From NCBI GenBank assembly GCA_019449555.1, contig JAGRPN010000094.1, positions 1-42,869 on the forward strand: DNA of 42,869 bases. The letters are read 5' to 3'. The DNA is from Ramlibacter sp. GTDB taxonomy: Bacteria; Pseudomonadota; Gammaproteobacteria; Burkholderiales; Burkholderiaceae_C. Below are positions 1,012 through 16,066 of this stretch, piece after piece. How positions within the stretch are numbered: position 1 is the first letter of the stretch; the number at the start of each line of letters is the position of its first letter. Position numbers and translations under genes: made by a program. The notes beneath the pieces are model-generated. The model ran no database searches, was not told the origin of the DNA, and saw nothing but the letters and a program-made list of their open reading frames with translations.

Positions 1012-1191
1012 GGAGTTCTCCCGGGTGAGGATGGCAGTCCAGTCTACGGCGACGGATTGCCCCTTATGTAGGAAGGGCGCTGATTTTGGCCGTCGCGCCG
1101 CGCTCGATATGACTCTGCGCTGCGATCACTCTGCAGTCGCCGAACTCTGCTGGTGCACCGCGCGGCATACACGCAAAGATAAGATGCCCGA

Positions 1192-1548: not shown

Positions 1549-1550
1549 CA

Positions 1551-2066: not shown

Positions 2067-2089
2067 GGACGCCTTCGGCAATGCGAAGC

Positions 2090-2728: not shown

Positions 2729-2807
2729 GCGAACCCCTGAATGCAAAAGCGCAAGTATCGCTGCGCCGCGGCTGTTTGCAAGGACTCGCGCTTTCTTCGC
2801 AGCGCCG

Positions 2808-3692: not shown

Positions 3693-3825
3693 GGCCTCCA
3701 GCCTAACCTCGGCCGCCGCGCCTGTGCCAGGACAACTGACCTCATGCAGCGTCGGCCTCGGCCTACACGCTGCCGCGTCCTGAAGACGATATGGTTAGCG
3801 ACTCAACCAGACGACGCTCTATCTC

Positions 3826-4593
3826 ATGGGTAAATCCGCCAGCACAGTGCGCTTCGCCGTCGTCGGCGACCTCCATGTCACCAAGGATTCGGCCGGCAGC
3901 CTGCGCGGCTTGTTCGCCCAGGCCTCAGCCACGGCCGACGCGCTGCTGCTCTGCGGTGACCTCACGGATTACGGCACTGCCGAGGAGGCCCAGGTCCTGG
4001 CCGACGAGCTCGGCGCCGTTTCCGTGCCCATCGTCGCCGTGCTGGGCAACCACGACTACGAATCCGGAACGCCGGAGACCGTCACGGAACTGCTCACTCG
4101 CGCAGGGGTGCGCGTCCTCGACGGCGAGGCCTGCGAGATCGAAGGCGTGGGCATCGCGGGCGCCAAGGGCTTTGCCGGAGGGTTCGGCCACGGCTCGCTC
4201 GGCGCGTGGGGCGAGCCCGCGATCAAGCAGTTCGTGCAGGAGGCGCTGCACGAGGCGATGAAGCTGGAGTCCGCGCTGGCCAAGCTGCGCATGGCGCGGC
4301 GCATCGCGCTGCTGCACTATTCGCCGATCACCGGCACGGTGCAGGGCGAGCCGGTGGAGATCTTTCCCTTCCTGGGCAGCAGCCGGCTTGAGGAGCCGCT
4401 GCTGCGCTACCCGGTGGATGCCGTCTTCCACGGCCACGCGCATCGCGGAACGCTCGAGGCGAAGACCATCAATGGCGTGCCGGTGTTCAACGTGGCCAAG
4501 CCGCTGCTGCTGCGCAGCCGGCCGGACCAGCCGCCGTTTCGCCTGTTCGAGCTGCCGCGCGAGGCGGCGCCGGCGCCGGCAGGCGCCGCATGA
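3826..4593 (+). CDS. Calcineurin-like metallophosphoesterase
   Basis: A 255-residue soluble metallophosphoesterase. All family motifs are visible in order: GDLHV (residues ~14-18), GDLTDYG (~44-50), GNHDYE (~72-77), LHYSP and HGHAHRG near the C-terminus. These place the dinuclear metal site residues (Asp-His, Asp, Asn-His, His, His-x-His). Such enzymes hydrolyse phosphomono- or diesters; substrate cannot be read from sequence. There is no signal peptide, so it is probably cytoplasmic. The last few residues (APAPAGAA) are a non-conserved tail. The next gene lies convergently 12 bp downstream. Confidence 0.92.
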   Translation: MGKSASTVRFAVVGDLHVTKDSAGSLRGLFAQASATADALLLCGDLTDYGTAEEAQVLADELGAVSVPIVAVLGNHDYESGTPETVTELLTRAGVRVLDGEACEIEGVGIAGAKGFAGGFGHGSLGAWGEPAIKQFVQEALHEAMKLESALAKLRMARRIALLHYSPITGTVQGEPVEIFPFLGSSRLEEPLLRYPVDAVFHGHAHRGTLEAKTINGVPVFNVAKPLLLRSRPDQPPFRLFELPREAAPAPAGAA

Positions 4594-4605
4594 GGCGCGG
4601 CAGGG

Positions 4606-4809
4606 CTATTCGCGTTCGGCTGAGGGTGCCGTCCCGTGCAGCCGGCGAGACATGGCGCGGGCCCGTTCCGCGGCCGCGCTCCAGCGGGCCGCCGCCTTCA
4701 CGCGCTCGTTGACGTCCGTGGTCGGCTCGTCGAGCTGCTTCCATAACAGCCGCTCCTCGGCCAGCGCGGCTTCGTATTCCAGATCCTGAAATTGTTCGGT
4801 GCTGTTCAC
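4606..4809 (-). CDS. Small hypothetical protein, helical
   Basis: A predicted 67-residue protein that begins at a GTG preceded by GGGAG with 8-9 bp spacing; an ATG 24 bp further upstream would add eight residues. The sequence (NSTEQFQDLEYEAALAEERL) is strongly helical and charged, has no Cys and no membrane segment. I recognise no domain. It converges with the metallophosphoesterase gene. Coding status is supported by the plausible ribosome binding site and typical high-GC codon usage only. Confidence 0.5.
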   Translation of the reverse strand: MNSTEQFQDLEYEAALAEERLLWKQLDEPTTDVNERVKAAARWSAAAERARAMSRRLHGTAPSAERE

Positions 4810-4942
4810 GTTGTCGACTCCCGCTCGATGCACTGATCTGCATTCACCTTTTCATGATAGACCACGCCGGCCAGGGAGCAAGCGGAAAGTCGCCTCGGCG
4901 GCTCATGTGTCGAGGGCCGGCCCCGCGCCGCGCCCGCGCCGT

Positions 4943-5158
4943 TCAATCCGTTCCGCCCGGCTCCACGGCCGGCACCGCGAGTTCGCGGCCGACCATCGTG
5001 CGCGCGTAGAAATAGTTATTGCGGGCGCTCTCGCTCAGTTCGTCGAGGTTGACGCGGCCCGCGCCGTCGCAAGGGAAGGCGTATCCGCGTCCGCTGTCGA
5101 ACAGGGAGCGGAAACACAATCGGAACGACCCCGATTCCACCCGCAGCACGTCATTCAT
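4943..5158 (-). CDS. Small conserved-looking hypothetical protein
   Basis: A 71-residue soluble protein starting at ATG 5158, preceded by GGAG with 6 bp spacing, which favours this start over the ATG two codons upstream. The sequence MNDVLRVESGSFRLCFRSLF followed by GRGYAFPCDGAGRVNLDELS and ARNNYFYARTMVG reads like a compact alpha/beta protein. It looks familiar from small unnamed proteins in Burkholderiales, but I know no function. Two Cys are present without metal-site spacing. Confidence 0.6.
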   Translation of the reverse strand: MNDVLRVESGSFRLCFRSLFDSGRGYAFPCDGAGRVNLDELSESARNNYFYARTMVGRELAVPAVEPGGTD

Positions 5159-5345
5159 GGACATCTCCGTTGCACTGGAGCCGCAGCTTCGGCGGCGCCT
5201 GCTTCCTCAACGGCACGAGTCGCAGCGCGGACGACGTCCTGCTGCAAAGGATGCGTGAAGACTGTGAAGGTTTGATGCCTGCTGACTTGCGACAAGTGAC
5301 GGTACGACTGCCGCGTCACAATGGACGGGCCGAGGAGGAAACACT

Positions 5346-5900
5346 ATGCCTTACATCCGGATGGACGTCGCGTTCACGGCTGCCGCCGCCGCGGCGCTTC
5401 GGGCCGAACTGGGTGCCGGCTGGGACAAACCACGGCCCATGTTCACCCTCGAACCGCTGCAACACAAATTGCCGTGCACGGGCGACCTGGTCGCGGATCT
5501 CAGGTTGGCCGATCGCGCCTGGCGCGTCGAGCAGCGCGCGGTGCGGGTCGACCAGCATGCCAACGCCACGATTTCGCTTTTGCTTGGCCTGGCGCCGGAC
5601 GCCGGGCTCGGCTGCGACGTGCAGGACGAACGCGTGCAACTGACCGACAACGCCCGCGCCGCGCTGTTCGCCGAGTACGTCGGCCGGGAGCAGCCTTCGG
5701 AATGCCGCGTGGTGATGGTCGCCCTCAGCGCGACGCCCGACCTGCGGGCCGGGGACATCGTGCAGGACACGAGCTTTTCGCGTCACATGTTCTTCATCGA
5801 CGAGCGGCTCTTTCTGTGGACGCCGTCGAACGAAGTGCATGTGCGCTACCTGCTGGACGTGGGCATGAAGGCCGGGGAGTTGCAGCAGCTGCGCCAGTAA
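5346..5900 (+). CDS. Hypothetical soluble protein
   Basis: A 184-residue protein with a strong ribosome binding site (GAGGAGG about 8 bp before the ATG). No signal peptide, membrane helix or catalytic motif was recognised. It has two Cys and no obvious low-complexity segments. Its end is 89 bp before a Bug receptor gene on the same strand. I cannot assign a function; the clean start, length and codon use support a real gene. Confidence 0.65.
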   Translation: MPYIRMDVAFTAAAAAALRAELGAGWDKPRPMFTLEPLQHKLPCTGDLVADLRLADRAWRVEQRAVRVDQHANATISLLLGLAPDAGLGCDVQDERVQLTDNARAALFAEYVGREQPSECRVVMVALSATPDLRAGDIVQDTSFSRHMFFIDERLFLWTPSNEVHVRYLLDVGMKAGELQQLRQ

Positions 5901-5989
5901 GGCGTGGCCCGGGCGGGTTTGATTCCTGTACGATGATTCGGCTGCGCAGCGTTCGCGGCGCACGCGGATCTACGAATCAGGAGACATCA

Positions 5990-6961
5990 ATGCATCGTCG
6001 CAGCATCGTCATCGCAGCGGTTGCCGCCCTCGCCACGGTCACCGCCGTCCAGGCGCAGGACAAATGGCCCGCCAAGCCCATCACCTACATCGTGCCGTTC
6101 GGTCCCGGCGGCACTACCGATGTGCTGGCCCGCCTGGTGACGATCAAGGCCGGGCCGGCACTCGGCACCAGCTTCGTGATCGAGAACAAGCCGGGCGCCG
6201 GCGGCAGCATGGGTTCGGACTACACCGCCAAGGCGGCGCCGGACGGCTACACGATCCAGGGCGGCACCATCAGCTCGCATGCGATCAACGTCAGCCTGTA
6301 TTCGAAGCTGCCCTACGACCCAGTCAAGAACTTCCAGCCGATCACGATGATCGGATCGATGCCCAACATCCTCGTGGTGCGTGCCGACAGCCCGTACAAG
6401 ACGGTGCCGGACGTGATCGCGGCAATCAAGGCCAAGCCCGGCACGATCAACTACGCGTCATCGGGCAACGGCACCTCGCAGCATCTGTCGGGCGTGTTCT
6501 TCGAGCAGATGACCGGCGGCAAGATGGTGCATGTGCCCTACAAGAGCAGCGCGGAATCATTGACGGCGCTGATGAGCGGGCAGGGCGCCGACATCATCTT
6601 CGAGAACCTCGCGCCGGCGCTGCCGCACATCAAGGCCGGCAAATTGCGCGCCCTCGGGGTGACATCCGAGAAGCGCTCCTCGTCGCTGCCCGAGGTTCCC
6701 GCCATCGCCGAGACACTGCCCGGGTTCGGCATCGTCTCGTGGCAGGCGATCTTCGCGCCCGCCGGCGTGCCCAAGCCGGTGGTGGATAAATTGTCCGGCG
6801 AACTGATCAAGGCGATCAACGATCCCGACGTCAAGTCCAAGCTGGTCGCGCAGGGGATCGAACCCGGCGGCATGTCGCCCGCGGAACTGGGCGCCTTCCA
6901 GAAGTCCGAAGTCGAGAAGTGGGCCCGCGTGATCAAGGCGGGCAACATCAAGGTGGATTGA
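5990..6961 (+). CDS. Bug/TctC family periplasmic solute receptor (1)
   Basis: A 323-residue extracytoplasmic solute-binding protein. The signal peptide covers residues ~1-23 (MHRRSIVIAAVAALATVTAV..QAQ). The mature start has the Bug signature WPAKPITYIVPFGPGGTTDV, followed by VIENKPGAGGS, APDGYT and HVPYKSS, all typical of the two-lobed Bug fold that binds carboxylates and related small organic acids. A good CAGGAGA site precedes the ATG. No TctAB permease is adjacent; orphan Bug genes are common in Burkholderiales. The nearby thioesterase and crotonase genes suggest an acyl or aromatic acid ligand, which is inference only. Confidence 0.93.
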   Translation: MHRRSIVIAAVAALATVTAVQAQDKWPAKPITYIVPFGPGGTTDVLARLVTIKAGPALGTSFVIENKPGAGGSMGSDYTAKAAPDGYTIQGGTISSHAINVSLYSKLPYDPVKNFQPITMIGSMPNILVVRADSPYKTVPDVIAAIKAKPGTINYASSGNGTSQHLSGVFFEQMTGGKMVHVPYKSSAESLTALMSGQGADIIFENLAPALPHIKAGKLRALGVTSEKRSSSLPEVPAIAETLPGFGIVSWQAIFAPAGVPKPVVDKLSGELIKAINDPDVKSKLVAQGIEPGGMSPAELGAFQKSEVEKWARVIKAGNIKVD

Positions 6962-7046
6962 CCCCGGTCGGGGCGGGCGCCCCGACGCGTTTGCCCGCAT
7001 TGCGCCAAGTCAAGGAAAAGCGCGCACGGCGAACCATGCTTCTGGC

Positions 7047-8279
7047 ATGCCAAGCTTTGCCCGGATCATGGGGTTTGCCCATGAGGCGCCGCAACCCATC
7101 CATATCCACGGGCATGTGAGCGCCGGCTTCGAGGCCGTGCGCGACGCGTTCCAGCAGAACTTCGCCGGGCGCCGCGAAGCGGGCGGCGCCTGTTGCGTGT
7201 ACTGGCGCGGCCAGAAGGTGGTCGACCTGTGGGGCGGGGTCCGCAACAAATCGACTGGTGAGCCTTGGAACGAGGACACCATGGTGCTGATCTGGTCGGC
7301 CACCAAGGGGCTGGCCGCGATGACACTGGCGCTCGCCCACTCCCGCGGCTGGCTCGATTACGAAGAGCGCGTCTGCACCTACTGGCCGGAATTTGCCCAG
7401 AACGGCAAGGACAAGATCACCGTCCGCCAACTGCTGGCTCACCAGGCGGGCCTGTTCGCCTTCGATGAGCCGGTGGATCGCAGCGTGGTCGCCGACCTCG
7501 ATCGCCTGGCGGTCGTGCTCGCTCGCCAGCGACCGGCGTGGCAGCCGGGAGCGCGGCAGGCCTATCACGCGCTCACCCTCGGTTTCTACGAAGGTGAGTT
7601 GCTGCGCCGGATCGATCCGCGCCATCGCAGCCTCGGGCAGTTCTTCCAGGACGAGATCGCCGCGCGGCTCGGACTCGACCTCTACATCCGGCTGCCCGAA
7701 TCGATCCCGAACGCCAGGCTGGCGACGCTGGCGAGCCCGAGCCCGCTCGAGATGCTGCGCGGGTTCCCGATCCGCCTCACGCTCGCCTCGTTCAACCACC
7801 GCTCGAACATCTATCGCGCGCTCATCGCCAACCCCGGTGCCGATATCTCCCGGGACGGGCAGCGGATCTACTCGCGCAATCTGGAGGTGCCCTCCGGTGG
7901 CGGCGTCGGCACCGCGCGCGCAATCGCCAAGGCGTACAGCGTGTTCGCCATGGATGGATACGAATTGGACTTGCGACCGCAGACGCTGCGGGCGCTGGCG
8001 GCACCGGCGGTTCCGGCGACGCACGGCTTCTATGACGAGTGCCTGTTCGGCGAGGTCCGGTTCTCCCTCGGGTTCATGAAGCCCAGCCCGGCCTGGCCCT
8101 TCGGAAGCGAGAGCTCGTTCGGATCGCCCGGATCGGGCGGCACCCTGGGCTTCGCCGATCCGAAGGCCGGCATCGGTTACGCCTACGTCACCAGCCAGAT
8201 GGGGACAACGCTCACGGGCGACCCGCGCGACGTGGCGCTGCGAAACGCCCTGTATTCCATCATTCCACCGGCGCGGTAG
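7047..8279 (+). CDS. Beta-lactamase-related serine hydrolase (family VIII esterase type)
   Basis: A 410-residue enzyme of the class C beta-lactamase/DD-peptidase fold. The nucleophile motif S-A-T-K is at residues 84-87 and the second motif Y-H-A at ~173-175, the variant typical of EstB-like family VIII esterases rather than the Y-A-N of true class C beta-lactamases. A GSGGTLGFADP segment near the end may hold the third motif. There is no signal peptide, which also points to a cytoplasmic esterase. The start is uncertain: neither ATG 7047 nor ATG 7068 has a clear ribosome binding site. It precedes the thioesterase gene on the same strand. Confidence 0.88.
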   Translation: MPSFARIMGFAHEAPQPIHIHGHVSAGFEAVRDAFQQNFAGRREAGGACCVYWRGQKVVDLWGGVRNKSTGEPWNEDTMVLIWSATKGLAAMTLALAHSRGWLDYEERVCTYWPEFAQNGKDKITVRQLLAHQAGLFAFDEPVDRSVVADLDRLAVVLARQRPAWQPGARQAYHALTLGFYEGELLRRIDPRHRSLGQFFQDEIAARLGLDLYIRLPESIPNARLATLASPSPLEMLRGFPIRLTLASFNHRSNIYRALIANPGADISRDGQRIYSRNLEVPSGGGVGTARAIAKAYSVFAMDGYELDLRPQTLRALAAPAVPATHGFYDECLFGEVRFSLGFMKPSPAWPFGSESSFGSPGSGGTLGFADPKAGIGYAYVTSQMGTTLTGDPRDVALRNALYSIIPPAR

Positions 8280-8383
8280 GAGATAACCGCAGCGAACGAT
8301 TCGGCCATTGCGGCGGGCCGCAGCGCGTCCGTGCGTTTGAGCTAGAGTGGAGCGCGCAAAATTCGAAAGGAACGCACCGCATC

Positions 8384-8854
8384 ATGACCCCCGTCACCAG
8401 AAAAGACACCTTCTACAGCGACATGCTGGTCCGCTTTTCCCATTGCGATCCGGCAGGGATCATCTTCTATCCGCACTATTTCGTGATGTTCAACGGGCTG
8501 ATCGAGGACTGGTTCAACCATGCGCTGGAGATCGACTACGCCAACTTCATCACGACCCGGCGGATGGGGTTGCCGATGGTCAACCTGGTGTGCGACTTCA
8601 TCAAGCCTTCGAAGATCGGCGAGATCATCACACTGACCCTGAAGATCGAGCGCATCGGCAACAGCTCGCTCAAGCTGATCGTGAGCGCGCTCTACAAGGA
8701 CGAGGTGCGCTCGGCCGCGCACCTCACGGTCTGCGTCAATTCGCTGGAGACGGGCCGCGCCGTGCCCATTCCGGACGATCTGCGCAAACGCCTGGAGGAT
8801 TTCCGGCAGGGCAGATTGGACATCCCCCGCCCCAAGGAACTGCTGCACGAATAG
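8384..8854 (+). CDS. 4-hydroxybenzoyl-CoA thioesterase family acyl-CoA thioesterase
   Basis: A 156-residue hot-dog-fold thioesterase. The SHCDPAGIIFYPHYFVMFN segment carries the DPAG motif with the catalytic Asp of the 4HBT/YbgC subgroup; the rest follows the usual single-domain length and ends with PRPKELLHE. These enzymes hydrolyse acyl- or aroyl-CoA thioesters in the cytoplasm. The start ATG has GAAAGGAA upstream, and the upstream frame is non-coding. It sits 46 bp before a crotonase gene, suggesting joint action on CoA thioesters. Confidence 0.9.
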   Translation: MTPVTRKDTFYSDMLVRFSHCDPAGIIFYPHYFVMFNGLIEDWFNHALEIDYANFITTRRMGLPMVNLVCDFIKPSKIGEIITLTLKIERIGNSSLKLIVSALYKDEVRSAAHLTVCVNSLETGRAVPIPDDLRKRLEDFRQGRLDIPRPKELLHE

Positions 8855-8900
8855 CGTTCGCACAGTCGCACGACACTTGCCCATCACTTTGGAGCGCACC

Positions 8901-9734
8901 ATGAGCGATTCCCCCGCCGCGATCGACACCGGCACCGGCGACCTGATCGCCACGCTGCAGGACGGCGTCCTGACCCTCACGCTCAATCGGCCGCAGGCGC
9001 GCAATGCGATGTCGCGCGCGATGAACGAGGCGTTGCAGCAGCAGCTCGCACAGGCGGAGCTCGATCCGGCGGTCAGGTGCATCGTGCTCACCGGCGCCGG
9101 CAATGCGTTCTGCGCCGGAGGCGACGTGAAGGGCATGGCCGCCGCGGGTGACGGCACCGTCGGCGCGATGACCATCGACCAGGCGATCCATCGCCAGCGC
9201 CTGAACCAGCGCGGCACCGCGGGCAAATTGTTCAAGATGCCCAAGCCGACGCTCGCTGCCTTGCCGGGGCCCGCGGCCGGCGCGGGCCTGTCGCTGGCGC
9301 TCGCCTGCGACCTGCGGGTGATGGCCAGCACCGCGATCCTCACCACGGCTTTCGCGCGGGTCGGGTTTTCCGGCGATTACGGCGGCACCTATTTCCTCAC
9401 GCAATTGGTGGGCGCGGCCAAGGCGCGTGAACTGTATTTCCTGTCCGAACGGGTCGCCGCCGACGAGGCGTTGCGCCTTGGCCTGGTGAACTGGGTGTGC
9501 GAGCCCGACGCGCTGGCCGGCAAGGCCCGCGAGATCGCGCTGCGGCTGGCGAACGGGCCGACGGTAGCCTACCGCTACATGAAGGAAAACCTCAATCGGG
9601 CGATGCACGGCGAGGTGGAGGAGTGCATGGACCTCGAGGCGACCCACCATATCCACTGCGGCCAGACCGAAGACCACCGCGAGGCCGCTCGCGCTTTCGT
9701 CGAGAAACGCGAGCCGGTTTTCAAGGGACGCTGA
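8901..9734 (+). CDS. Enoyl-CoA hydratase/isomerase (crotonase) family protein
   Basis: A 277-residue crotonase-fold enzyme with TTTGGAG upstream of the ATG. Family motifs include LTLNRPQARNAMS, VLTGAGNAFCAGGDVKGMA (oxyanion-hole region) and PGPAAGAGLSLALACDLR. The two Glu of classical enoyl-CoA hydratase appear to be missing (GAGLSLAL instead of a GGGCELA-type segment; no Glu in the next block), while GFSGDYGGT has an Asp in the position used by PaaG-like isomerases. I therefore favour an isomerase-like reaction on an acyl-CoA over hydration. It is the last backbone gene before the cassette region. Confidence 0.9.
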   Translation: MSDSPAAIDTGTGDLIATLQDGVLTLTLNRPQARNAMSRAMNEALQQQLAQAELDPAVRCIVLTGAGNAFCAGGDVKGMAAAGDGTVGAMTIDQAIHRQRLNQRGTAGKLFKMPKPTLAALPGPAAGAGLSLALACDLRVMASTAILTTAFARVGFSGDYGGTYFLTQLVGAAKARELYFLSERVAADEALRLGLVNWVCEPDALAGKAREIALRLANGPTVAYRYMKENLNRAMHGEVEECMDLEATHHIHCGQTEDHREAARAFVEKREPVFKGR

Positions 9735-9915
9735 GGGGCGGACGCGCTCTTGCGCGGCGCGGGCCACGTATTGAGTGGGCCTGCGGCGTTTCCCCGTGTA
9801 CTTATCTGCTGGCTGGCGTTAGCATCGCCCCAGTCGCGCCAGCGTGGCGCCGACCCGAGGGGAAGGCCCATGACCGCACAAGCGGCAGATCACAAGTTTA
9901 TCCAGCAGGTTTATC

Positions 9916-9944
9916 CCGCAAGGGGGCCCGAGGCCGTCTTGCGG
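9916..9944. repeat. Short inverted repeat (7-bp arms)
   Basis: CCGCAAG (9916-9922) and CTTGCGG (9938-9944) are perfect inverted complements around a 15-base loop. The left arm lies within a TTTATCCCGCAAG word that recurs in the stronger hairpin at 10034-10063. Role unknown. Confidence 0.55.
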
Positions 9945-10033
9945 CATTCGAGCTGCCAATTTATCCGAGGTGATATCCCGCACCGGGCTAGAGAAAACGT
10001 GTCCGGCCGCGAACTTACGCGCGTCGATGGCGA

Positions 10034-10063
10034 CCTCTTATCGCGCAGTTGCGGGATAAGAGG
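10034..10063. repeat. Strong hairpin, 14-bp arms with 2-base loop
   Basis: CCTCTTATCGCGCA (10034-10047) pairs with TGCGGGATAAGAGG (10050-10063), 13 of 14 positions complementary with only two bases between. No T-run follows directly, although a GTTTTGG does, so it is a weak terminator candidate. Its position directly before the first cassette core suggests a mobile-element end or recombinase-binding site. That is inference. Confidence 0.7.
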
Positions 10064-10070
10064 TTTTGGT

Positions 10071-10098
10071 GTGCGGTCTACATTACGTTAGACCGCAC
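10071..10098. repeat. Perfect palindrome at the first cassette boundary, possible collapsed attC or attI remnant
   Basis: GTGCGGTCTA (10071-10080) and TAGACCGCAC (10089-10098) are perfect 10-bp inverted repeats with an 8-base loop. The right arm contains GTTAGAC (10087-10093), the same integron core-site sequence that ends attC1, attC5 and attC10. The left arm contains GTCTAC, one base short of the matching R'' core GTCTAAC. This looks like an attC reduced to its outer cores, or the right half of an attI. It marks the left edge of the array. Confidence 0.6.
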
Positions 10099-10107
10099 GC
10101 AACCGCG

Positions 10108-10557
10108 ATGAGACACTACTGCTCGCTGTTCATGCGATCGGACAGGCAAGACCAGGCCCACGCGCTGTTCGAACCATCAGTCATCGCCTCACTTCAGTTT
10201 GAAGACCTTCATTCGCCGGAGCGATTGGCACGGTCTCAGCGTTTGCGCAGTGTTGGCCTCGTCTCACGTAGCGACCTCCCTCGCTATTCCTGGTCCCTGA
10301 ATTCAGGTGAAACGGTGGGAACGGACGAGACAGATCCTTATATTCACGTCGCGTGGCTGCTGTCGCAGTTCAAGCCTGGGATATCGTTGGTGTCCGAACG
10401 CGATCGCGGCGTTGAGTTCTCTTTGAGCTTTTATTGGGGTGGCGGTGGTACCGGAGGCGGGCCGTTCATCTCGACTGCCTTGGCGGAGTTACTTCTGCGT
10501 CACCAACTCGGACTCGATGTAGGCTTCTATTTTGAAGGGAGTGGCAATGCGGTCTAA
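10108..10557 (+). CDS. Cassette 1: DUF4279-like protein
   Basis: A 149-residue soluble protein starting at ATG 10108, just inside the cassette; the longer frame would begin within the boundary palindrome. Its pattern, an N-terminal strand, a W-S-L turn (YSWSLNSGE), then PYIHVAWLLSQFKPG and a Gly-rich GGGGTGGG before FISTALAELLLRHQLGLDVGFYFE, resembles DUF4279, a domain often met in integron cassettes. Function of DUF4279 is unknown. The stop TAA lies inside the R'' core of attC1. No clear ribosome binding site precedes the start. Confidence 0.7.
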   Translation: MRHYCSLFMRSDRQDQAHALFEPSVIASLQFEDLHSPERLARSQRLRSVGLVSRSDLPRYSWSLNSGETVGTDETDPYIHVAWLLSQFKPGISLVSERDRGVEFSLSFYWGGGGTGGGPFISTALAELLLRHQLGLDVGFYFEGSGNAV

Positions 10558-10641
10558 CAGGTCCTTCAACACGGCCGCACAACGGTGTCCGCTCCCTTCG
10601 GTCGCACCTGGCTTGTGCGCCGGTCAAGTCCGACGTTAGAC
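10552..10641 (+). other. attC1 recombination site (90 bp)
   Basis: R'' GTCTAAC (10552-10558) and R' GTTAGAC (10635-10641) are perfectly inverted. L'' CTTCAAC pairs with L' GTCAAG with one extra C, the extrahelical base that directs bottom-strand recombination. The middle forms an imperfect hairpin (GGCCGCACAA...TTGTGCGCC). Confidence 0.9.
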
Positions 10642-10662
10642 GGCACTTATAGAGAGGTACTC

Positions 10663-10899
10663 ATGCGGTCTGCAATCTTCGTCGCTCCAGTTTGGATTTT
10701 CGCACTAGGTGCAATCTGGCTGGGCGCATCGCGTAGCGGCAGCGACATTGGCACAGTGTATGTGGGCCTGGGCGGACTTGGCGTATGCATCGCAAATGTG
10801 CTGGTGCTCCAGCACCGCCGACTTTCTGAGCTTGAGCGCCACCTCGAGTCGCTGACCAACACGCTGGCCTCGCAGTCTGGCCGCCGCGAGGCGCCTTGA
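10663..10899 (+). CDS. Cassette 2: small membrane protein with coiled-coil tail
   Basis: A 78-residue protein starting at ATG 10663 with GAGAGG about 6 bp upstream. Two hydrophobic helices are visible (IFVAPVWIFALGAIWLGA and IGTVYVGLGGLGVCIANVLVL), followed by a charged heptad-like tail (HRRLSELERHLESLTNTLAS) that probably forms a cytoplasmic coiled coil. No named family recognised. It fills most of its cassette, ending 10 bp before attC2. Confidence 0.75.
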   Translation: MRSAIFVAPVWIFALGAIWLGASRSGSDIGTVYVGLGGLGVCIANVLVLQHRRLSELERHLESLTNTLASQSGRREAP

Positions 10900-10908
10900 G
10901 ATGGCGCC

Positions 10909-10998
10909 GCCTAACAAGTCCTTCGACACGGACGCACAAGTGCGTCAGTGCGCGTTGCGCACGCGCTACGTGTGCGCCGGTCAAGTCCGACGTTAAGC
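10909..10998 (+). other. attC2 recombination site (90 bp)
   Basis: R'' GCCTAAC (10909-10915), R' GTTAAGC (10992-10998). L'' CTTCGAC versus L' GTCAAG leaves one extra C. The interior is very similar to attC6, differing at only a few positions over 90 bp. Confidence 0.93.
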
Positions 10999-11001
10999 CG
11001 C

Positions 11002-11265
11002 ATGAAAGTCTCTCTCGATGCTCGTCGCGCTTGGGCGGTTGCCGCATCCTTCGGCGCATTTGTCGCTCTTAGTCTACTGGTGGCGTATCTGCTAGGGTTT
11101 CTTCCTTCCATCGAAGAAAAATGCTCGGCCCAATGCACGGCGCGCGGGTTGGAGGGTCACATGATTCACATCTACCCCGCGGCGATGACGGCTGGCATGC
11201 GGGGCAGGGGCCCGTCTGAGTGCAAGTGTTTCCGGCCAGGGACATACAACCCACTCGCGCAATGA
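11002..11265 (+). CDS. Cassette 3: small membrane-anchored Cys-containing protein
   Basis: An 87-residue protein whose ATG (11002) lies only 3 bp after the attC2 core. One hydrophobic helix (AWAVAASFGAFVALSLLVAYLLGF, residues ~10-33) follows a basic start, so the remainder is likely periplasmic. That part has four Cys in a C-x3-C ... C-x-C arrangement (EEKCSAQC and ECKCF), suited to two disulfides or a metal site. No named family recognised. No ribosome binding site is evident before the start. Confidence 0.7.
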   Translation: MKVSLDARRAWAVAASFGAFVALSLLVAYLLGFLPSIEEKCSAQCTARGLEGHMIHIYPAAMTAGMRGRGPSECKCFRPGTYNPLAQ

Positions 11266-11272
11266 GCAGGCG

Positions 11273-11362
11273 GCTTAACAGGTTGGTCAACTCGGACGCC
11301 CAAGGGCATCCGGCCGCTGCGCGGCCCCTTTCCTTGGGCGCCGGTTACCGCCAACGTTAAGG
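11273..11362 (+). other. attC3 recombination site (90 bp)
   Basis: R'' GCTTAAC (11273-11279), R' GTTAAGG (11356-11362; final base departs from the usual Y). L'' GGTCAAC versus L' GGTTACC leaves one extra C. The interior is GGACGCCCAAGG...CCTTGGGCGCC, the second attC subtype of this array. Confidence 0.92.
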
Positions 11363-11370
11363 CTCAGCAT

Positions 11371-11646
11371 ATGAACGCACGTGGCCTGACTTACCTGAAA
11401 TGGTTCACCATTCTGTATAACATTTGTGCTGTCGCCGTTGTTGTAATCTCGCATTCGATGATCGCGTGGAAATGGCCATCTATTTCCAACGTCGCACCTC
11501 TTGACGTCCGCAGTACTCTAAACGTTGTGCTCGTGCTCGCGCCAGGTGCGATTGGTGCGTTGGTGCATTACGTGTTGGAGAGGCGGCTGAAGGAGGCGGA
11601 GGCGAAGGCCGGCGCTAGTCGCACAAGCTTAGGAAACGACCGATGA
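11371..11646 (+). CDS. Cassette 4: small two-helix membrane protein
   Basis: A 91-residue protein. Helix 1 spans about residues 11-34 (WFTILYNICAVAVVVISHSM) and helix 2 about 50-69 (TLNVVLVLAPGAIGALVHYV). The end is a charged helical tail (LERRLKEAEAKAG). The topology (two helices plus a charged C-terminal helix) is like cassette 2, though the sequences are not obviously related. Unusually for this array, 58 bp separate its stop from attC4. No family recognised. Confidence 0.7.
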   Translation: MNARGLTYLKWFTILYNICAVAVVVISHSMIAWKWPSISNVAPLDVRSTLNVVLVLAPGAIGALVHYVLERRLKEAEAKAGASRTSLGNDR

Positions 11647-11704
11647 AGAGCATTGAGCGTTCGCACCCGAGCTTGCACTGCTCGCGCGCCTTCGATGGGC
11701 AGAA

Positions 11705-11794
11705 CCTTAACTTGTCAGTCAACGCGGACGCCCAAAGGCGTCCGGCCGCTGCGCGGCCGACCTTGAGTGGGCGCCGGTTACTTTCACGTTAAAT
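11705..11794 (+). other. attC4 recombination site (90 bp)
   Basis: R'' CCTTAAC (11705-11711), R' GTTAAAT (11788-11794). L'' GTCAAC versus L' GTTAC leaves one extra C. Second subtype (GGACGCCCAAAGG core). The ATG of cassette 5 begins inside R'. Confidence 0.92.
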
Positions 11795-12140
11795 GGCAGC
11801 GCTGACAGTCACTCCAGAAGCGCTCGCCTGCATTCGGCAGACCATTGAGCGCGAAGCGATTCAGAAACCCTTGGTTGCGATCGCGTGGTCGGAAGGGCAG
11901 GCGGACTTGAGTCGTGACGCGTCAGGCAACCCGGTGTGGGTGCGCGAACCCGCCGGCTGGTTGGCTACGGTGCTGGACCTGGCGGAAATTGAGGAAGCCG
12001 GGGGCGCTTGGCCAAGCTCGGTCGTTGAGTTGCATGGCTACAAGTTCTCGCTCTCAGAAATGGCGACGCCTCCTCAGTTTGCAGGTTGCACACTCGCCTA
12101 TGAGGAAGGAAAGTTGGTAGTCCATGAATCAGCCATTTAA
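11793..12140 (+). CDS. Cassette 5: HesB/IscA-like fold protein without the cluster Cys
   Basis: A 115-residue soluble protein with its ATG formed partly by the last core bases of attC4 (GTTAAATG) and its TAA inside the R'' of attC5, so the gene is exactly one cassette long. The start LTVTPEALACIRQTIER resembles the opening strand-helix of IscA/HesB proteins. Beta-rich segments follow. The C-x-C pair and other Cys that bind iron-sulfur clusters in IscA are absent (only two scattered Cys). Resemblance is to the fold only, and a different function is likely. Recognition is tentative. Confidence 0.6.
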   Translation: MAALTVTPEALACIRQTIEREAIQKPLVAIAWSEGQADLSRDASGNPVWVREPAGWLATVLDLAEIEEAGGAWPSSVVELHGYKFSLSEMATPPQFAGCTLAYEEGKLVVHESAI

Positions 12141-12221
12141 CTTGTCAATCGACGCGGACGCCCGAGTGCATCCGGCCGCTGCGCGGCCAGTGCTCGTGTG
12201 CCGGTCATTTTTACGTTAGAC
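12135..12221 (+). other. attC5 recombination site (87 bp)
   Basis: R'' ATTTAAC (12135-12141), R' GTTAGAC (12215-12221). L'' AATCGAC versus L' GTCATT leaves one extra C. Second-subtype interior with GGCCGCTGCGCGGCC as the terminal loop stem. Confidence 0.9.
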
Positions 12222-12242
12222 ATCAGTGAGCCGGCTTTTCTC

Positions 12243-12452
12243 ATGCTAATAGTCACAAGCTACCCCGGGCAAAGTCTTCGATTGATCGAGGCGCCGGAAC
12301 ACCTCATCCCATATCTCTTGGCAGACGGCAAGAGCATCCCGTTTGTCCGTCGAGCGACAAAGGGAGAAGTCGAGACGGCAACGCCGCTGAGCGATTCGGA
12401 GCTCGAGCTTAAACGGCTGCACGATAAAGACCCTCGCTGGGGCAGCTGGTGA
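12243..12452 (+). CDS. Cassette 6: small hypothetical protein
   Basis: A predicted 69-residue soluble protein starting at ATG 12243; earlier in-frame codons fall within attC5 and are unlikely to be used. The sequence begins MLIVTSYPGQSLRLIEAPEH, followed by a charged region ending KDPRWGSW. No membrane helix, no motif, no family recognised. No strong ribosome binding site. Its place between two attC sites is the main support. Confidence 0.6.
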   Translation: MLIVTSYPGQSLRLIEAPEHLIPYLLADGKSIPFVRRATKGEVETATPLSDSELELKRLHDKDPRWGSW

Positions 12453-12498
12453 GCGGAGTGCTGTCGAAAGCTCTACGATCAACCATCGTGGCCCCGAT

Positions 12499-12588
12499 GC
12501 CTAACCGGTCCTTCGACACGGACGCACAAGTGCGTCTGTGCGCGTTGCGCACGCGCTTCCCGTGCGCCGGTCAAGTCCGACGTTAGCC
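12499..12588 (+). other. attC6 recombination site (90 bp)
   Basis: R'' GCCTAAC (12499-12505), R' GTTAGCC (12582-12588). L'' CTTCGAC versus L' GTCAAG leaves one extra C. Almost the same sequence as attC2. Confidence 0.93.
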
Positions 12589-12620
12589 AGCACGTTCAAT
12601 GTCACTGTGAGGAGGCGGAT

Positions 12621-13073
12621 ATGGACTTCGATCAGAGTGTTCTTCTCACGATTTTGGACAAGCTCTTGATCGGGCTTCTCCTCGCCATAGCGGGGTACTG
12701 GCTCAACGGAGCATTGGAACGCATGAAGGGGAGAATTGCGCTTCAGAATGCGTTGGCGCCAGCGCGCTCTGCAGCGTGTGCAAAGCTGTGGGGCTACACC
12801 CAACGGCTCACACCCAGGGGCAACATTCTGCCTTCCGCGGAGGACTGTGAGAGAGCGTTCACAGAAACGCGCGCTTGGTACTACTCGGAAAGTGGAGCGA
12901 TGCACCTTTCTCATCGCGCTACAAGGCTTACTCTCCAGTTGCTGACCAGCTTAGAGGGACGAGACCTTGAGCAGGCGAAGACCGTCGCTTCGGCATTGCG
13001 GACGCAGTTGAAGCTTGATCTCGGGACGTACTCGAAATCTGAGGCGAAGCGGTCCGTTCAGCATGCCGGCTAA
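12621..13073 (+). CDS. Cassette 7: membrane-anchored helical protein
   Basis: A 150-residue protein with GTGAGGAGG about 6 bp before the ATG. A single membrane helix near the N-terminus (LLIGLLLAIAGYWL, residues ~15-29) is followed by a positively charged stretch and a long cytoplasmic helical domain with no recognised motif. The TAA is part of the R'' core of attC7. Such N-anchored helical proteins are seen among uncharacterised phage-defence accessory proteins, but that link is inference only. Confidence 0.75.
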   Translation: MDFDQSVLLTILDKLLIGLLLAIAGYWLNGALERMKGRIALQNALAPARSAACAKLWGYTQRLTPRGNILPSAEDCERAFTETRAWYYSESGAMHLSHRATRLTLQLLTSLEGRDLEQAKTVASALRTQLKLDLGTYSKSEAKRSVQHAG

Positions 13074-13181
13074 CAGGTCGTTCGACGCGGACACGCAGCG
13101 GCATTGCGCCGCGATGCGTGCTGGTGAGCGTACACCTCGCGGCGCAATGCCACTGCGTGCCGGTCAACTCCGACGTTAGCC
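13068..13181 (+). other. attC7 recombination site (114 bp)
   Basis: R'' GGCTAAC (13068-13074), R' GTTAGCC (13175-13181). L'' GTTCGAC versus L' GTCAAC leaves one extra C. The interior is longer than in the other sites and forms an extended stem (GGCATTGCGCCGCGA...TCGCGGCGCAATGCC). Confidence 0.92.
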
Positions 13182-13194
13182 TCATAGGAAGCTC

Positions 13195-13527
13195 ATGTCT
13201 GAACCAATGTCCAAAACTCGCCGCGAACTCCTCATTGAGATGGAGAGCATTCTCGGTAACGAGTGCTACAACGCGAGCATCGAGAACTATGGGCCGGGTG
13301 GTGTAAGGCAAGCACCAGGAAGATCATTTCGCTATCCCATCACTCTTCGTGACACGGATGGAACGACGACGAAGGTGAAAGCCAGCTCCATCAATTCCTT
13401 TTTTTCTGATGACCAGGTTCGCAGCGGCTACTACGCGTTTGGCGCGAATCAGCTCGATGTAATGAGCGGCCTTGAGAAGATTTTGGAGCTGCTGGAGCAG
13501 CGGTACGGGCTTAATCTGGCCAAATAG
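13195..13527 (+). CDS. Cassette 8: hypothetical soluble protein
   Basis: A 110-residue protein starting 13 bp after attC7, with an internal ATG four codons later as an alternative start; AGGAAG lies upstream. The N-terminus is helical (TRRELLIEMESILGNECYN), the middle beta-rich with a DTDGTTTKVKAS turn, and the end a helix-loop with EKILELLEQRYGLNL. One Cys, no membrane helix. I recognise no named family. Confidence 0.7.
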   Translation: MSEPMSKTRRELLIEMESILGNECYNASIENYGPGGVRQAPGRSFRYPITLRDTDGTTTKVKASSINSFFSDDQVRSGYYAFGANQLDVMSGLEKILELLEQRYGLNLAK

Positions 13528-13560
13528 AGTGCACCCGACTATCCGCGACGCTGGCATGAG

Positions 13561-13650
13561 GGCTAACAGGTCAATCAACACGGACGCACGAATGCGTCCG
13601 CTCGCTGCGCTCGCACCTTGTTCGCGCGCCGGTTATCTCCAACGTTAGGC
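13561..13650 (+). other. attC8 recombination site (90 bp)
   Basis: R'' GGCTAAC (13561-13567), R' GTTAGGC (13644-13650). L'' ATCAAC versus L' GGTTAT leaves one extra C. Interior GGACGCACGAATGCGTCC with a CGCTGCGCTCGC loop stem. Confidence 0.92.
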
Positions 13651-13674
13651 AGCAATCCCGCTCGAGGAATCGCT

Positions 13675-14088
13675 TTGAATTACTTCTGCCCTCAGTGCTC
13701 CGAACCGGTCCATCCATTCGCGACGGCTTGCGGCCGCTGCAAGGCTCGGTTTGGAGGGCGGAGTGGGTGGTCTCCCATTTCAGAAGAGGCGCTTGCGCAA
13801 TCCAAGCGGGGCTCCATTGGGGGAATTCTTCTTGTCACTGTCATCAACCTAGTAGTCCTCTTTTCGACATCATTGCTCGCCGCTGGGGGTGACGGAAGCG
13901 ATGATGGCGTTACGACTGTTCGGATCGGTGGGAGCATATTCATTGCTTTTTTCTCGCTCGTGGGCGTGTTCAGGTGGCTGCAGGGCCGTCCCGGCACTCC
14001 AATCGCGGCATTGGCCTTACCTGTAGCCTTCCTTGGCAGTGCAATCTTTGCTGTCATCGCCAGGGCTCTCGGTTACCACGTGGGGTGA
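13675..14088 (+). CDS. Cassette 9: zinc-ribbon membrane protein
   Basis: A 137-residue protein starting at TTG 13675, supported by GAGGA seven bases upstream; a longer frame would start inside attC8. The N-terminus NYFCPQCSEPVHPFATACGRC is a four-Cys zinc ribbon (C-x2-C ... C-x2-C). Three hydrophobic helices follow (IGGILLVTVINLVVLFSTSL, GGSIFIAFFSLVGVF, PIAALALPVAFLGSAIFAVI). This resembles small zinc-ribbon membrane proteins of unknown role. It ends 5 bp before attC9. Confidence 0.75.
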   Translation: MNYFCPQCSEPVHPFATACGRCKARFGGRSGWSPISEEALAQSKRGSIGGILLVTVINLVVLFSTSLLAAGGDGSDDGVTTVRIGGSIFIAFFSLVGVFRWLQGRPGTPIAALALPVAFLGSAIFAVIARALGYHVG

Positions 14089-14092
14089 GCAT

Positions 14093-14173
14093 GCCTAACA
14101 AGTCAGTCAAGACGGACGCCCTCGCGGCAGGCTTCGCCTGCCTGTGGTCCGCCGCTTACCTCCGACGTTAGGG
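14093..14173 (+). other. attC9 recombination site (81 bp)
   Basis: R'' GCCTAAC (14093-14099), R' GTTAGGG (14167-14173). L'' GTCAAG versus L' CTTAC leaves one extra C. Shorter interior than the 90-bp sites, with a GCAGGCTTCGCCTGC loop stem. Confidence 0.9.
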
Positions 14174-14181
14174 CCTTGCAC

Positions 14182-14511
14182 ATGAATGACACGCCAAGAC
14201 AAGCCGACCGCATTTCCACCCTGTACTTGCTTTTGATGACATCGTTTCTTGTTGGCGCAAGTACCTTATTCAGGGCTTTCTCCTATGCAATCGAACGAGG
14301 GGTTTCGCCGCCAGTGGTCGCAAAGGTGGCCATATGTTTGTCGCTCTTTTCTGCCTGTTGCATCTGGCTCAACAAGAAGAATTACTTTTACGATCAGGTG
14401 CAGCGAAAACATCTAATGAATCTTCACTTGAGCTTCCTGCAAATCATATTGACCGTCGCAACACTGCTATTTTGGGTGTTTCTGAAGTTGGCCTTTTTCG
14501 GTTCCAAATGA
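14182..14511 (+). CDS. Cassette 10: three-helix membrane protein
   Basis: A 109-residue protein starting at ATG 14182, 8 bp after attC9. Three membrane helices: LYLLLMTSFLVGASTLFRAF (~residues 12-32), VVAKVAICLSLFSACCIWL (~46-64) and FLQIILTVATLLFWVFLKLA (~84-103). A basic and aromatic loop (KKNYFYDQVQRKHL) joins helices 2 and 3. No named family recognised. It ends 7 bp before attC10. Confidence 0.72.
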   Translation: MNDTPRQADRISTLYLLLMTSFLVGASTLFRAFSYAIERGVSPPVVAKVAICLSLFSACCIWLNKKNYFYDQVQRKHLMNLHLSFLQIILTVATLLFWVFLKLAFFGSK

Positions 14512-14518
14512 GACGCAG

Positions 14519-14584
14519 CCCTAACCCTACGTTGGAGGCGACTTGCGCAAAAGGCCGCGCAGGCGCCTCAACTCCACGTTAGAC
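14519..14584 (+). other. attC10 recombination site (66 bp), different type
   Basis: R'' CCCTAAC (14519-14525), R' GTTAGAC (14578-14584). L'' GTTGGAG pairs with L' CTCAAC with one extra G, unlike the C of the other nine sites. At 66 bp it is the shortest and its interior is unrelated to the others, suggesting a foreign origin. It is the last intact attC. Confidence 0.8.
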
Positions 14585-14635
14585 GGCTCACACGTAGTAG
14601 TGTCCGCACTGCACCCTACACTCCGGAAGAGTGCG

Positions 14636-14658
14636 TTCAGACTTTCTTAAGGTCTGAA
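14636..14658. repeat. Short inverted repeat upstream of the next gene
   Basis: TTCAGAC (14636-14642) and GTCTGAA (14652-14658) are perfect inverted arms around nine bases, within the 128-bp gap between attC10 and ATG 14713. It could be an operator or chance; nothing else recognisable lies in this gap. Confidence 0.35.
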
Positions 14659-14712
14659 CTTCAGTCTACATGGACAGTCAGCGTTGACTGGACTCGGTCG
14701 AAAGGAAGGATC

Positions 14713-14997
14713 ATGAAGCCAAGCAATTTTGCCGTGGTGCTGGGCGTCGCAGCGGCCATGATGAGCATTTCATCGCATGCGGACGATCATCGCAAGGAGT
14801 CACGAGGCAATCATCGCGTCGACTCAGGCATGCAAGCCGTCTTTACTGGCACAAAGAGTGGGCAGCCGGGCCACGGCTGGCGCTACTTCGCCGATGCACG
14901 CGAAGGCAGGGCAGTCGTGATCAGCCCTGGCGGCGACTATTTCTACAGTCACGGGAATGGTCTCGCCCTCGTGTTCAAGGCAACGGGCGCCGTCTAA
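14713..14997 (+). CDS. Small secreted hypothetical protein
   Basis: A 94-residue exported protein with GGAAGGATC just before the ATG. The signal peptide is clear (residues 1-23, AVVLGVAAAMMSISSHA then a charged DDHRKESRG start of the mature protein). The mature part has GHGWRYFADAREGRAVVISPGGDYFYSHGNG, a beta-rich region with aromatic and Gly residues. No family recognised. No attC follows it, so its cassette status is uncertain. Confidence 0.65.
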   Translation: MKPSNFAVVLGVAAAMMSISSHADDHRKESRGNHRVDSGMQAVFTGTKSGQPGHGWRYFADAREGRAVVISPGGDYFYSHGNGLALVFKATGAV

Positions 14998-15231
14998 GCC
15001 TGCCGTTTTGGACCTTATGAAGTCCGACCCGTTCTGCACCTGTGGCTTGCGCCAAGACGTAGAAGTTCTGCACTGGAGCAAAGCGCTCGAGGACAACGAG
15101 CAGCTCGCCCTGCAGCAGGCCGACACCGAGGGTTTTTCCCGAGACGCACAAACAGCAAGTGTGACTTGCGTCAAAGTCATGTTGCGGGCGGGGTCAGTAA
15201 TGTGGTCGTTCTCAATGCCAAAGGAGATGCC

Positions 15232-15639
15232 ATGGTCGCTCGCCGCAGTCTCATCGCAAGCAGCCTAGCCGGCGCAGCCGCACTCTTGGACGGATGTGCC
15301 ACCGGTACGTCGCAACCGTCTGCTTCGTCATCCGGCAAGATAAAGTTGACTATCCTGCACCACACTCCGAAGGACCCTGCCGCCTTCGACAAGTACTACG
15401 AGCAAACGCACCTGCCGCTGGCTGCAGCCGTGAAGGGTCTCCCTGCGATGGAGCGCTCTAAGCCGATGCCGCTGCGGCCAGGTGCGCCCACGCCGTACTA
15501 CCAGATGGTCGAATTCCGGTTCGACAGCCCAGACCACTTCCGATCTGTGATGAGCTCACCGGAATGGGCGAAGGTGGGTGACGACGTGAAGAACTTCGCC
15601 ACCAACGGCATCACCATCGTGGCCTCCCGCATTTTGTGA
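15232..15639 (+). CDS. EthD-like dimeric alpha-beta barrel protein with export signal
   Basis: A 135-residue protein starting at ATG 15232 with AAAGGAG upstream. Residues 1-25 form a signal with a twin-Arg start (ARRSLIASSLAGAAALLDGC), possibly a lipoprotein signal although the Asp two before the Cys is unusual. From ~35 on, KLTILHHTPKDPAAFDKYYEQTHLPLA is the EthD-family opening (a ferredoxin-like alpha-beta barrel), and YYQMVEFRFDSPDHFRSVMSSPEW completes it. Most EthD proteins are cytoplasmic, so export is notable. Function unknown. A half attC follows it. Confidence 0.75.
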   Translation: MVARRSLIASSLAGAAALLDGCATGTSQPSASSSGKIKLTILHHTPKDPAAFDKYYEQTHLPLAAAVKGLPAMERSKPMPLRPGAPTPYYQMVEFRFDSPDHFRSVMSSPEWAKVGDDVKNFATNGITIVASRIL

Positions 15640-15649
15640 GTGGCATCCG

Positions 15650-15679
15650 CCGGACTCGCGGTCAAGTCCAACGTTATGC
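15650..15679 (+). other. attC remnant, 3' half only
   Basis: GGTCAAG (15660-15666), spacer TCCAAC and GTTATGC (15673-15679) match the L'-spacer-R' end of attC1, 2, 6 (GGTCAAGTCCGACGTTA). No matching R''-L'' half lies upstream, and R' has drifted from GTTAGNC to GTTATGC. It marks an old cassette boundary. Confidence 0.65.
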
Positions 15680-15969
15680 TGCACGCGCCCATTGACACAT
15701 CGCTTGTCGCATGGGCACTCGGGGTTGTGCTCGTCATCGCAAATGCGATTGTCTGCGTGGCTGTCGCACGCGCGGGTGGTCTCACGCGTGGACAGATCAT
15801 TGTGCAGACGGTAGTCGTGTGGCTCATTCCTGTGATCGGCGCGGGGATGGTCGGCACATTCTTGTGGTCGGAGGCTCACCCGCGCCGGCGGCTGGACCAA
15901 ACAAGTAACTTGGGGGAAGCGCCTGGCATCGACGGGCATTTTCTGGATGCGGGTGGTCATGCGCCATAG
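15676..15969 (+). CDS. Small two-helix membrane protein (cassette-like)
   Basis: A 97-residue protein whose ATG is part of the decayed R' core (GTTATG). Two hydrophobic helices: SLVAWALGVVLVIANAIVCVAVA and IIVQTVVVWLIPVIGAGMVGTFL; the arrangement is reminiscent of PLDc_N-type small membrane domains. The C-terminal ~30 residues are hydrophilic. Its TAG stop lies in the position of the TAAC core of the decayed site downstream, so start and stop are both embedded in fossil attC sequence, exactly as in cassette 5. Confidence 0.65.
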   Translation: MLHAPIDTSLVAWALGVVLVIANAIVCVAVARAGGLTRGQIIVQTVVVWLIPVIGAGMVGTFLWSEAHPRRRLDQTSNLGEAPGIDGHFLDAGGHAP

Positions 15970-16009
15970 CATGTCAGTCAACGCGGACGCCCAACGGCGG
16001 CCGGCCTGA
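15964..16009 (+). other. attC remnant, 5' half only
   Basis: The segment aligns with the first half of attC4: CCATAGC replaces R'' CCTTAAC, then TGTCAGTCAAC and GCGGACGCCCAA are shared. After about 16009 the similarity stops and no L'-R' half follows. The R'' mutation (AAC to AGC) would prevent recombination. Confidence 0.7.
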
Positions 16010-16066
16010 AGATTGACGGCGACGCCCATGAGAAGGCGACTACGGAAAAGGTGAGGGCCCCGGGTG

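Follow-up and report, generated by a model that had tools for sequence, protein, structure and literature searches.

An integrase-less cassette array headed by an attI leader in Ramlibacter

IntegronFinder, the standard tool for such elements, is described as seeking the attI site in class 1 integrons only, so that arrays without an integrase gene (intI) are sorted as CALINs (clusters of attC sites lacking an integrase) whether or not an attI has been kept. Here we describe such an array in a 42,869-base stretch of Ramlibacter DNA, the whole of which is referred to below as the window. It shares with a CALIN, as defined in IntegronFinder, the presence of at least two attC sites and the absence of a nearby intI, but it differs from a CALIN in the sense of a platform-free cluster, because an attI heads it. 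The sedentary chromosomal integrons of Xanthomonas and Ramlibacter albus share with it the attI type (that of R. albus), the attC type, the gene orientation and the location in the host chromosome, and differ in having intI and a LexA box. Integrons in which intI has been lost or broken in place are reported from Xanthomonas (PMC12444791) and Treponema phagedenis (PMC3607928), which makes a single locus of this kind less surprising. In the delta-attI cassettes reported from class 1 and class 2 integrons, attI or pieces of it (mostly 14-18 nt, 244 nt in one type) take the place of attC downstream of the gene (PMC12901181); the likeness is that attI sequence stands away from its usual place beside intI, and the difference is that the attI leaders described here precede whole arrays. 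We consider it likely that the array is a chromosomal integron from which the integrase gene has been lost, while the attI leader and ten cassettes have been kept.

The attI and attC sites

The window is the entire contig C373 of a Ramlibacter draft genome (G000; 5.1 Mb, 458 contigs, 96% complete, 3% contamination), so that 10 kb and 28 kb of contig flank the array. The genus, used here in the GTDB sense, is placed by NCBI in the Comamonadaceae, Burkholderiales, in agreement with the first-pass annotation of this DNA, which was made from the sequence alone and had called the chromosome Burkholderiales-like. An attI profile (R3) was built from an alignment (A4) of 30 intI-adjacent sites from relatives, with the window and contig C71 of the same genome excluded; it matched the window at 10035-10098 (E=8.8e-14) and C71 at 8098-8164 (E=6.6e-10). 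The array is headed by the following features.

9895..10034, plus strand: upstream attI leader, with TTTATCC..GCA repeats at 9897-9920; the local alignment to C71 spans 9895-10092
10035..10098, plus strand: attI (R3 E=8.8e-14), core CATTAC followed by GTTAGAC at 10081-10093

Judged by sequence, the attI that belongs to a complete integron is present. It is identical to the R. albus attI at 55 of 64 bases (86%), and one alignment of the R. albus leader with the window extends to 190 bp ahead of the GTT. A local alignment of the two leaders scored 87, where 200 shuffles reached at most 26. When leaders were compared singly with the window, six of 11 exceeded all of their own shuffles, that of R. 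albus most, and the stretches ahead of the first cassette in the window and in C71 aligned with a global score of 137 (300 shuffles: mean 44.6, maximum 73.5). The layout in relatives is intI, in most cases a LexA-like box, and then the core TGCGGTCTACATTAC followed by GTTAG, the distance from intI to core being about 290-340 bp in most Ramlibacter sites and about 170 bp in several other genera. Inside the window attI (10034-10063) there is also a palindrome, CCTCTTATC..GATAAGAGG, and inverted motifs like it are seen again in other attI sites of the genus; it may be a pair of IntI-binding sites or form an RNA hairpin.

The first-pass annotation had regarded the array as a detached piece of a chromosomal integron, a CALIN. 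In a plain CALIN the cassettes would have come loose from a distant integron and entered a chance site (attG) through an integrase, with no platform of their own. Chance genomic sites reportedly do serve for cassette insertion. The lack of a nearby intI accords with such an origin, as does the report that about half of Xanthomonas genomes have attC arrays which lack an integrase and lie apart from the intI locus (PMC12444791). However, a chance site should share little past the core, whereas the first cassette of the window joins a 64-bp match to the attI profile, with leader alignment to about -190, and we therefore think a plain CALIN very unlikely. That the array is integrase-less stands, but its own attI leader means that the locus holds a platform and not just loose cassettes: it is better described as an integron remnant or satellite with attI at its head than as a bare cluster.

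Ten candidate attC sites, all on the plus strand, had first been picked from the sequence. To avoid circularity, the covariance model used to search for them (R2) was trained on 12 attC sites of contigs C71 and C3 and on none from the window; its R/L pairing was written by hand because RNAalifold yielded no consensus structure for the C71/C3 attC alignment. The model recovered all ten sites, nine at E<=4.3e-11 and the tenth at E=0.005, and its sole additional match in the window at E<=1 had E=0.086. The ten attC sites of the first-pass annotation are borne out by this search, and they match others in the same genome.

10552-10641, plus strand: attC 1 (R2 E=4.7e-13)
10909-10998, plus strand: attC 2 (R2 E=4e-16)
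11273-11362, plus strand: attC 3 (R2 E=5e-16)
11705-11794, plus strand: attC 4 (R2 E=4.3e-11)
12135-12221, plus strand: attC 5 (R2 E=1.9e-11)
12499-12588, plus strand: attC 6 (R2 E=9.9e-17)
13068-13181, plus strand: attC 7, a 114-nt form (R2 E=1.7e-14)
13561-13650, plus strand: attC 8 (R2 E=3.1e-16)
14093-14173, plus strand: attC 9 (R2 E=5.4e-16)
14519-14584, plus strand: attC 10, compact, weak and misaligned in the ten-site alignment (R2 E=0.005)

Covariation supports the R''/R' and L''/L' pairing on the ten sites: 92.5% of 160 cells were paired (2 of 500 shuffles as high), slid versions of the pairing reaching just 22-37%. Two-sided changes were seen in 11 cells and the covariation score was 0.162 (0 of 500 shuffles for each), the clearest case being an alternation of A-U and G-C in the L box; covariation was weaker on two of the five measures, namely pairs with a two-sided change (31 of 500 shuffles) and further pair types (294 of 500). 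The folding of the bottom strand, compared with shuffles, gave z from -1.1 (attC 5) to -8.4 (attC 7). Across the genome, R2 at E<1e-3 found 23 sites, on C373 (nine), C71 (seven), C3 (six) and C6 (one), 13 of them near or among the training sites; the weak tenth site of the window was not among the matches listed. On C6 (L019 244-1690) an attC appears by eye to be split by a 1.4-kb element that has inverted ends and holds a pair of toxin-antitoxin-like genes. The array DNA matched 38 of 58 other Ramlibacter genomes, all of the matches listed lying within attC intervals (+/- about 25 bases), and attC 7 was up to 97% identical to attC sites of other Ramlibacter genomes; on these alignments, the window cassettes bear attC sites of the genus type.

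The missing integrase gene and the origin of the array

No intI was found on the 42.9-kb contig, which upholds the first-pass statement that the window holds no integrase; the intact intI that in a complete integron stands beside attI and is transcribed away from the cassettes is absent. A search of the whole draft genome with TIGR02249 gave four matches, none over the cut-off. Two of these matches fall in one 417-aa frame on C138, of a kind found in 14 of 14 control genomes, and the remaining two are short pieces on C71 and C401. The C401 piece (L020 6503-6583; E=4e-5) corresponds to the last 27 residues (289-315) of an IntI-like protein, the rest of which is absent; by eye its DNA reads MIYTHVLK, a peptide also used as an IntI search pattern. 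Beside the C71 attI is what looks like a broken intI comprising residues 1-38 (tblastn E=3e-16; 82% identity with a relative across 38 aa). Neither of the two attI loci found in this genome has an intact intI.

The C71 site belongs to a second integron locus, made up of L017 (C71) 7716-13208 and L018 (C3) 1-7500, contigs that share 118 bases, end to start. It has the attI, the intI stub and a longer array with 13 attC sites at E<1e-3; a weak third attI match lies on C216 (E=0.008). A second attI-like core lies inside the C71 array (L017:9386-9410, R3 E=0.0016), in a cassette without attC by eye, and recalls the delta-attI cassettes. One cassette is present twice in the C71/C3 array (L017:12414-12825 and L018:4457-4862), the copies being nearly identical by eye.

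Our working hypothesis is that a Ramlibacter-type integron, with intI, a LexA-box promoter, attI and cassettes, stood at the locus or was copied there, that intI would then have been deleted, and that attI and the cassettes would have stayed. The gene on the left is:

8901..9734, plus strand: enoyl-CoA hydratase gene, left flank (Pfam PF00378, E=3.4e-57)

Its stop lies 353 bp ahead of the attI GTT, and the R. albus intI begins 323 bp ahead of the GTT; we propose that deletion of intI brought the end of the enoyl-CoA hydratase gene close to the point at which intI would start.

Comparable loci are found elsewhere in the genus. Among 59 Ramlibacter genomes, R3 found 51 attI places (E<=1e-4, near matches merged) in 30 genomes, 15 having a divergent intI match (E<=1e-25) no more than 1 kb away and 36 having none. 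The 36, which include the window and C71 (hence our own genome twice, once with an intI stub), fall in 25 genomes, eight of them without any intI match at E<=1e-25. A scan of 150 genomes of the family gave 87 attI places in 41 genomes, ten of which adjoin intI and 77 of which do not; neither ratio is a prevalence, since some intI-adjacent sites escape the profile, loci are broken up in drafts, a decayed intI can fall below the limit and many-genome searches use stricter filters. We fetched 33 intI-less loci, comprising 31 of the 34 places outside our own genome and two weaker matches (E 1.2e-4 and 1.5e-3). At 27 of them attC sites lie downstream on the same strand, within 1.5 kb at 25; four of the other six have 506 or fewer bases of contig left, and two (L156 and L180) have 4 kb. 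None of 97 attC matches was on the wrong side or strand, and the same attI-headed, intI-less arrangement occurs in the single-contig genomes G007 and G064. In another single-contig genome, partial matches to IntI-like recombinases (G202:C1:1735662-1736192 and 3480316-3480846; E about 1e-30) sit directly downstream of intI-less attI sites on the same strand, and perhaps represent an element that targets attI.

Nine IntI proteins compared with the 33 loci gave no match at 29. L165 retains a decayed intI start, residues 2-107 in pieces (about 106 codons); matches of 30-43% identity at L173 (upstream, in intI orientation), L179 and L180 were not counted as this intI. A LexA-like box is present at L174 and at C71, that at L180 overlapping the core and being taken as chance. 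L174 also aligns with the integron of its own genome, as far as about 10 codons into intI (a DNA alignment only, with no tblastn match). For L165, C71 and L174, loss of intI in place is favoured.

An alternative is that attI and cassettes were copied or moved as a module and that intI was never at the locus, for which integrase-mediated excision upstream of attI, unequal recombination and gene conversion are suggested as routes. Neither an IntI-like match nor a LexA-like box is kept at 28 of the 33 fetched loci, a result that fits complete deletion but also fits movement of attI without intI. Alignment ends 171-192 bp ahead of the core in 12 of 35 loci, the window included, a point in favour of a module, although this limit near -190 may merely mark the end of leader conservation. 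At the 18 of the 33 loci whose genome has an intI-adjacent leader among the 24 references, ten intI-less attI sites were closest to the leader of their own genome (binomial p=5e-10), one of them narrowly, and eight were not. Stretches of 377-523 bp at 90-98% are common to intI-less and intI-bearing arrays in G033, G020 and G028. From these two results, copying within genomes and arrival from outside both seem to occur. No upstream gene or transposase common to the intI-less attI loci was found, and upstream ORFs (open reading frames) are shared in three locus pairs only, which also accords with a module. Against a module, the three other loci named above retain intI starts of different length, and no empty site was found: only two of the 58 other congeners carry an enoyl-CoA hydratase ortholog (E<=1e-80; 89% and 85%), with no DNA match past the gene. 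On balance, we regard transfer as a module as possible but rather unlikely for the window.

The reading preferred here, an integron that has lost its intI, has several further observations against it, besides the 28 loci bare of both intI and box. No LexA box with three or fewer mismatches was found within 900 bp upstream of the window attI, and no intI remnant in the window was significant across 15 references (the best, C71, p about 0.014 uncorrected). Five of the 11 leaders compared singly with the window failed to exceed their shuffles, the window and C71 share stretches of attC length only, and a consensus scan of 9700-10130 found no sigma-70-like site for a Pc cassette promoter. An intact intI could, moreover, be hidden by the draft state of the genome.

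A further explanation is an error of assembly or binning, with intI next to the array yet placed on a different contig, or with the contig itself being foreign. The 458 contigs and 3% contamination lend it something, as does the GC content of the array (0.56-0.61), which is below that of most of the flanks (0.64-0.70), though this is usual for cassettes. The array nevertheless lies well inside one contig, with high-GC flanks on both sides, and the same arrangement is seen in the two single-contig genomes; we judge such an error extremely improbable.

The array in this genome is probably static. In relatives with an intact intI elsewhere, attI-headed arrays could still be served in trans; the stretches that intI-bearing arrays have in common with intI-less ones of the same genome accord with such service, and these arrays may function in this way.

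A reading frame through attI

In class 1 integrons, attI1 is reported to contain ORF-11, a short ORF that runs over the crossover and takes its stop, usually TAG, from positions 3-5 of the cassette core GTTRRRY; it aids the first cassettes that have no ribosome site of their own, and amino-acid changes in it had a slight effect only (PMC8876359). An ORF across the crossover point, with a stop from the cassette core, is likewise present in the window.

9999..10091, plus strand: predicted leader ORF, GTG plus 29 codons; the TAG at 10089-10091 is supplied by the R' core of the first cassette

The leaders described here resemble ORF-11 in spanning the crossover and in the cassette-supplied stop, and differ from it in length (about 20 or 30 predicted codons against 11), in sequence and in being chromosomal. 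Across 49 attI sites (54 before deduplication), the frame closed by the TAR of the R' core holds six stops in 1372 codons, compared with 35 and 48 in the other frames and about 57 predicted from composition. At 23 of the 49 sites this frame has a start codon accompanied by a ribosome site, against three and two in the others; at 40 intI-adjacent sites from many genera, in part the same ones, the corresponding numbers are 27, four and none, although the counts are not fully independent because attI sites share motifs. Fifteen of the 27 intI-adjacent leader ORFs are exactly 20 codons long.

We propose that the leader ORF, spanning attI and ending in the first cassette, would pass ribosomes to cassette 1 as ORF-11 does. 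Cassette 1 starts 16 nt after the leader stop and no ribosome site of its own was seen, and leader-driven expression of the cassette may follow. Several results speak against this: the leader has no third-position bias (260/244/228; 30 pairs), synonymous changes are hardly commoner in the leader frame (29%) than in the others (25% and 25%), and the window leader has a GTG start and a weak ribosome site. Conservation of the leader peptide sequence was looked for and not found, as changes are spread evenly over codon positions; for the same reason it is translation, not the peptide, that would matter. The open frame might instead be a by-product of conserved IntI-binding motifs, with no translated leader, as the absent codon-position bias and the recurrence of motifs among sites would allow. 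Enrichment of ribosome site plus start in that frame alone, at both sets of sites, speaks against a by-product, and we hold this explanation to be unlikely.

Among the literature matches listed (titles and the starts of abstracts, subscription journals and preprints being mostly outside the scope), none dealt with attI-headed integrase-less chromosomal arrays or with a chromosomal attI leader ORF. Neither the frequency of such arrays in the family nor an ORF-11-like chromosomal leader was found described in the literature searched. It is interesting to speculate, and we do so tentatively, that Ramlibacter and related genera carry multi-platform integrons, in which one integrase, or none, is accompanied by several attI-headed 'satellite' arrays dispersed over the chromosome, each with a translated leader that expresses the cassette captured first. 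Were this so, many elements called CALIN would be satellite integrons open to capture in trans and not debris. Should a working attI be present in many of them, one integrase could supply several expression platforms per cell, and models of cassette capture, silent storage and expression would be altered. With the attI profile and the leader ORF, the multi-platform idea can be put to the test. As the leader suggests, the ORF-11 device known from clinical class 1 integrons may be part of a design more widely shared among chromosomal integrons of the Burkholderiales.

Cassette genes and the eroded tail

One plus-strand ORF lies between each pair of attC sites, as the first-pass annotation had described. 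The predicted cassette genes are:

10108..10557, plus strand: cassette 1 gene, 149 aa, no Shine-Dalgarno seen ahead of the ATG; no Pfam, NCBIfam or PADLOC match
10663..10899, plus strand: cassette 2 gene, 78 aa, membrane-like by eye
11002..11265, plus strand: cassette 3 gene, 87 aa
11371..11646, plus strand: cassette 4 gene, 91 aa
11793..12140, plus strand: cassette 5 gene, 115 aa
12243..12452, plus strand: cassette 6 gene, 69 aa
12621..13073, plus strand: cassette 7 gene, 150 aa
13195..13527, plus strand: cassette 8 gene, 110 aa
13675..14088, plus strand: cassette 9 gene, 137 aa, TTG start assumed; by eye a zinc-ribbon-like start and membrane segments
14182..14511, plus strand: cassette 10 gene, 109 aa, sub-threshold likeness to an 8xMP membrane protein (PF24838, E=0.0006; 20.1 bits, cut-off 30)

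None of the ten proteins had a Pfam match over the cut-off or a PADLOC match at E<=0.1, and NCBIfam gave two sub-threshold matches only. The earlier view that the cassette genes are unrecognised therefore holds within these three profile libraries, and the accompanying idea that they might serve phage defence gains no support from PADLOC. No shared cassette gene was seen among the matches listed for the 58 other congeners (five candidates were scored per genome, so some may be missed). A plasmid search with the array DNA gave two records with pieces of attC length only, and an Rfam scan of the window returned zero families at gathering score.

Two parts of the array had been overlooked by the first-pass annotation: attI lies upstream of 10087, and an eroded tail extends to about 16000.

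14585..16012, plus strand: eroded array continuation, with a small ORF, an EthD gene, an ORF and attC-like half sites
14713-14997 and 15676-15969, plus strand: the small ORF and the second ORF of the eroded tail
15232-15639, plus strand: EthD gene (E=1.9e-14)
near 15655-15680, plus strand: right-half attC-like stretch, 11 nt, equal to the background maximum and only suggestive
15972-15994, plus strand: left-half attC remnant, identical to attC 4 over 23 nt (500 background segments gave 11 at most)

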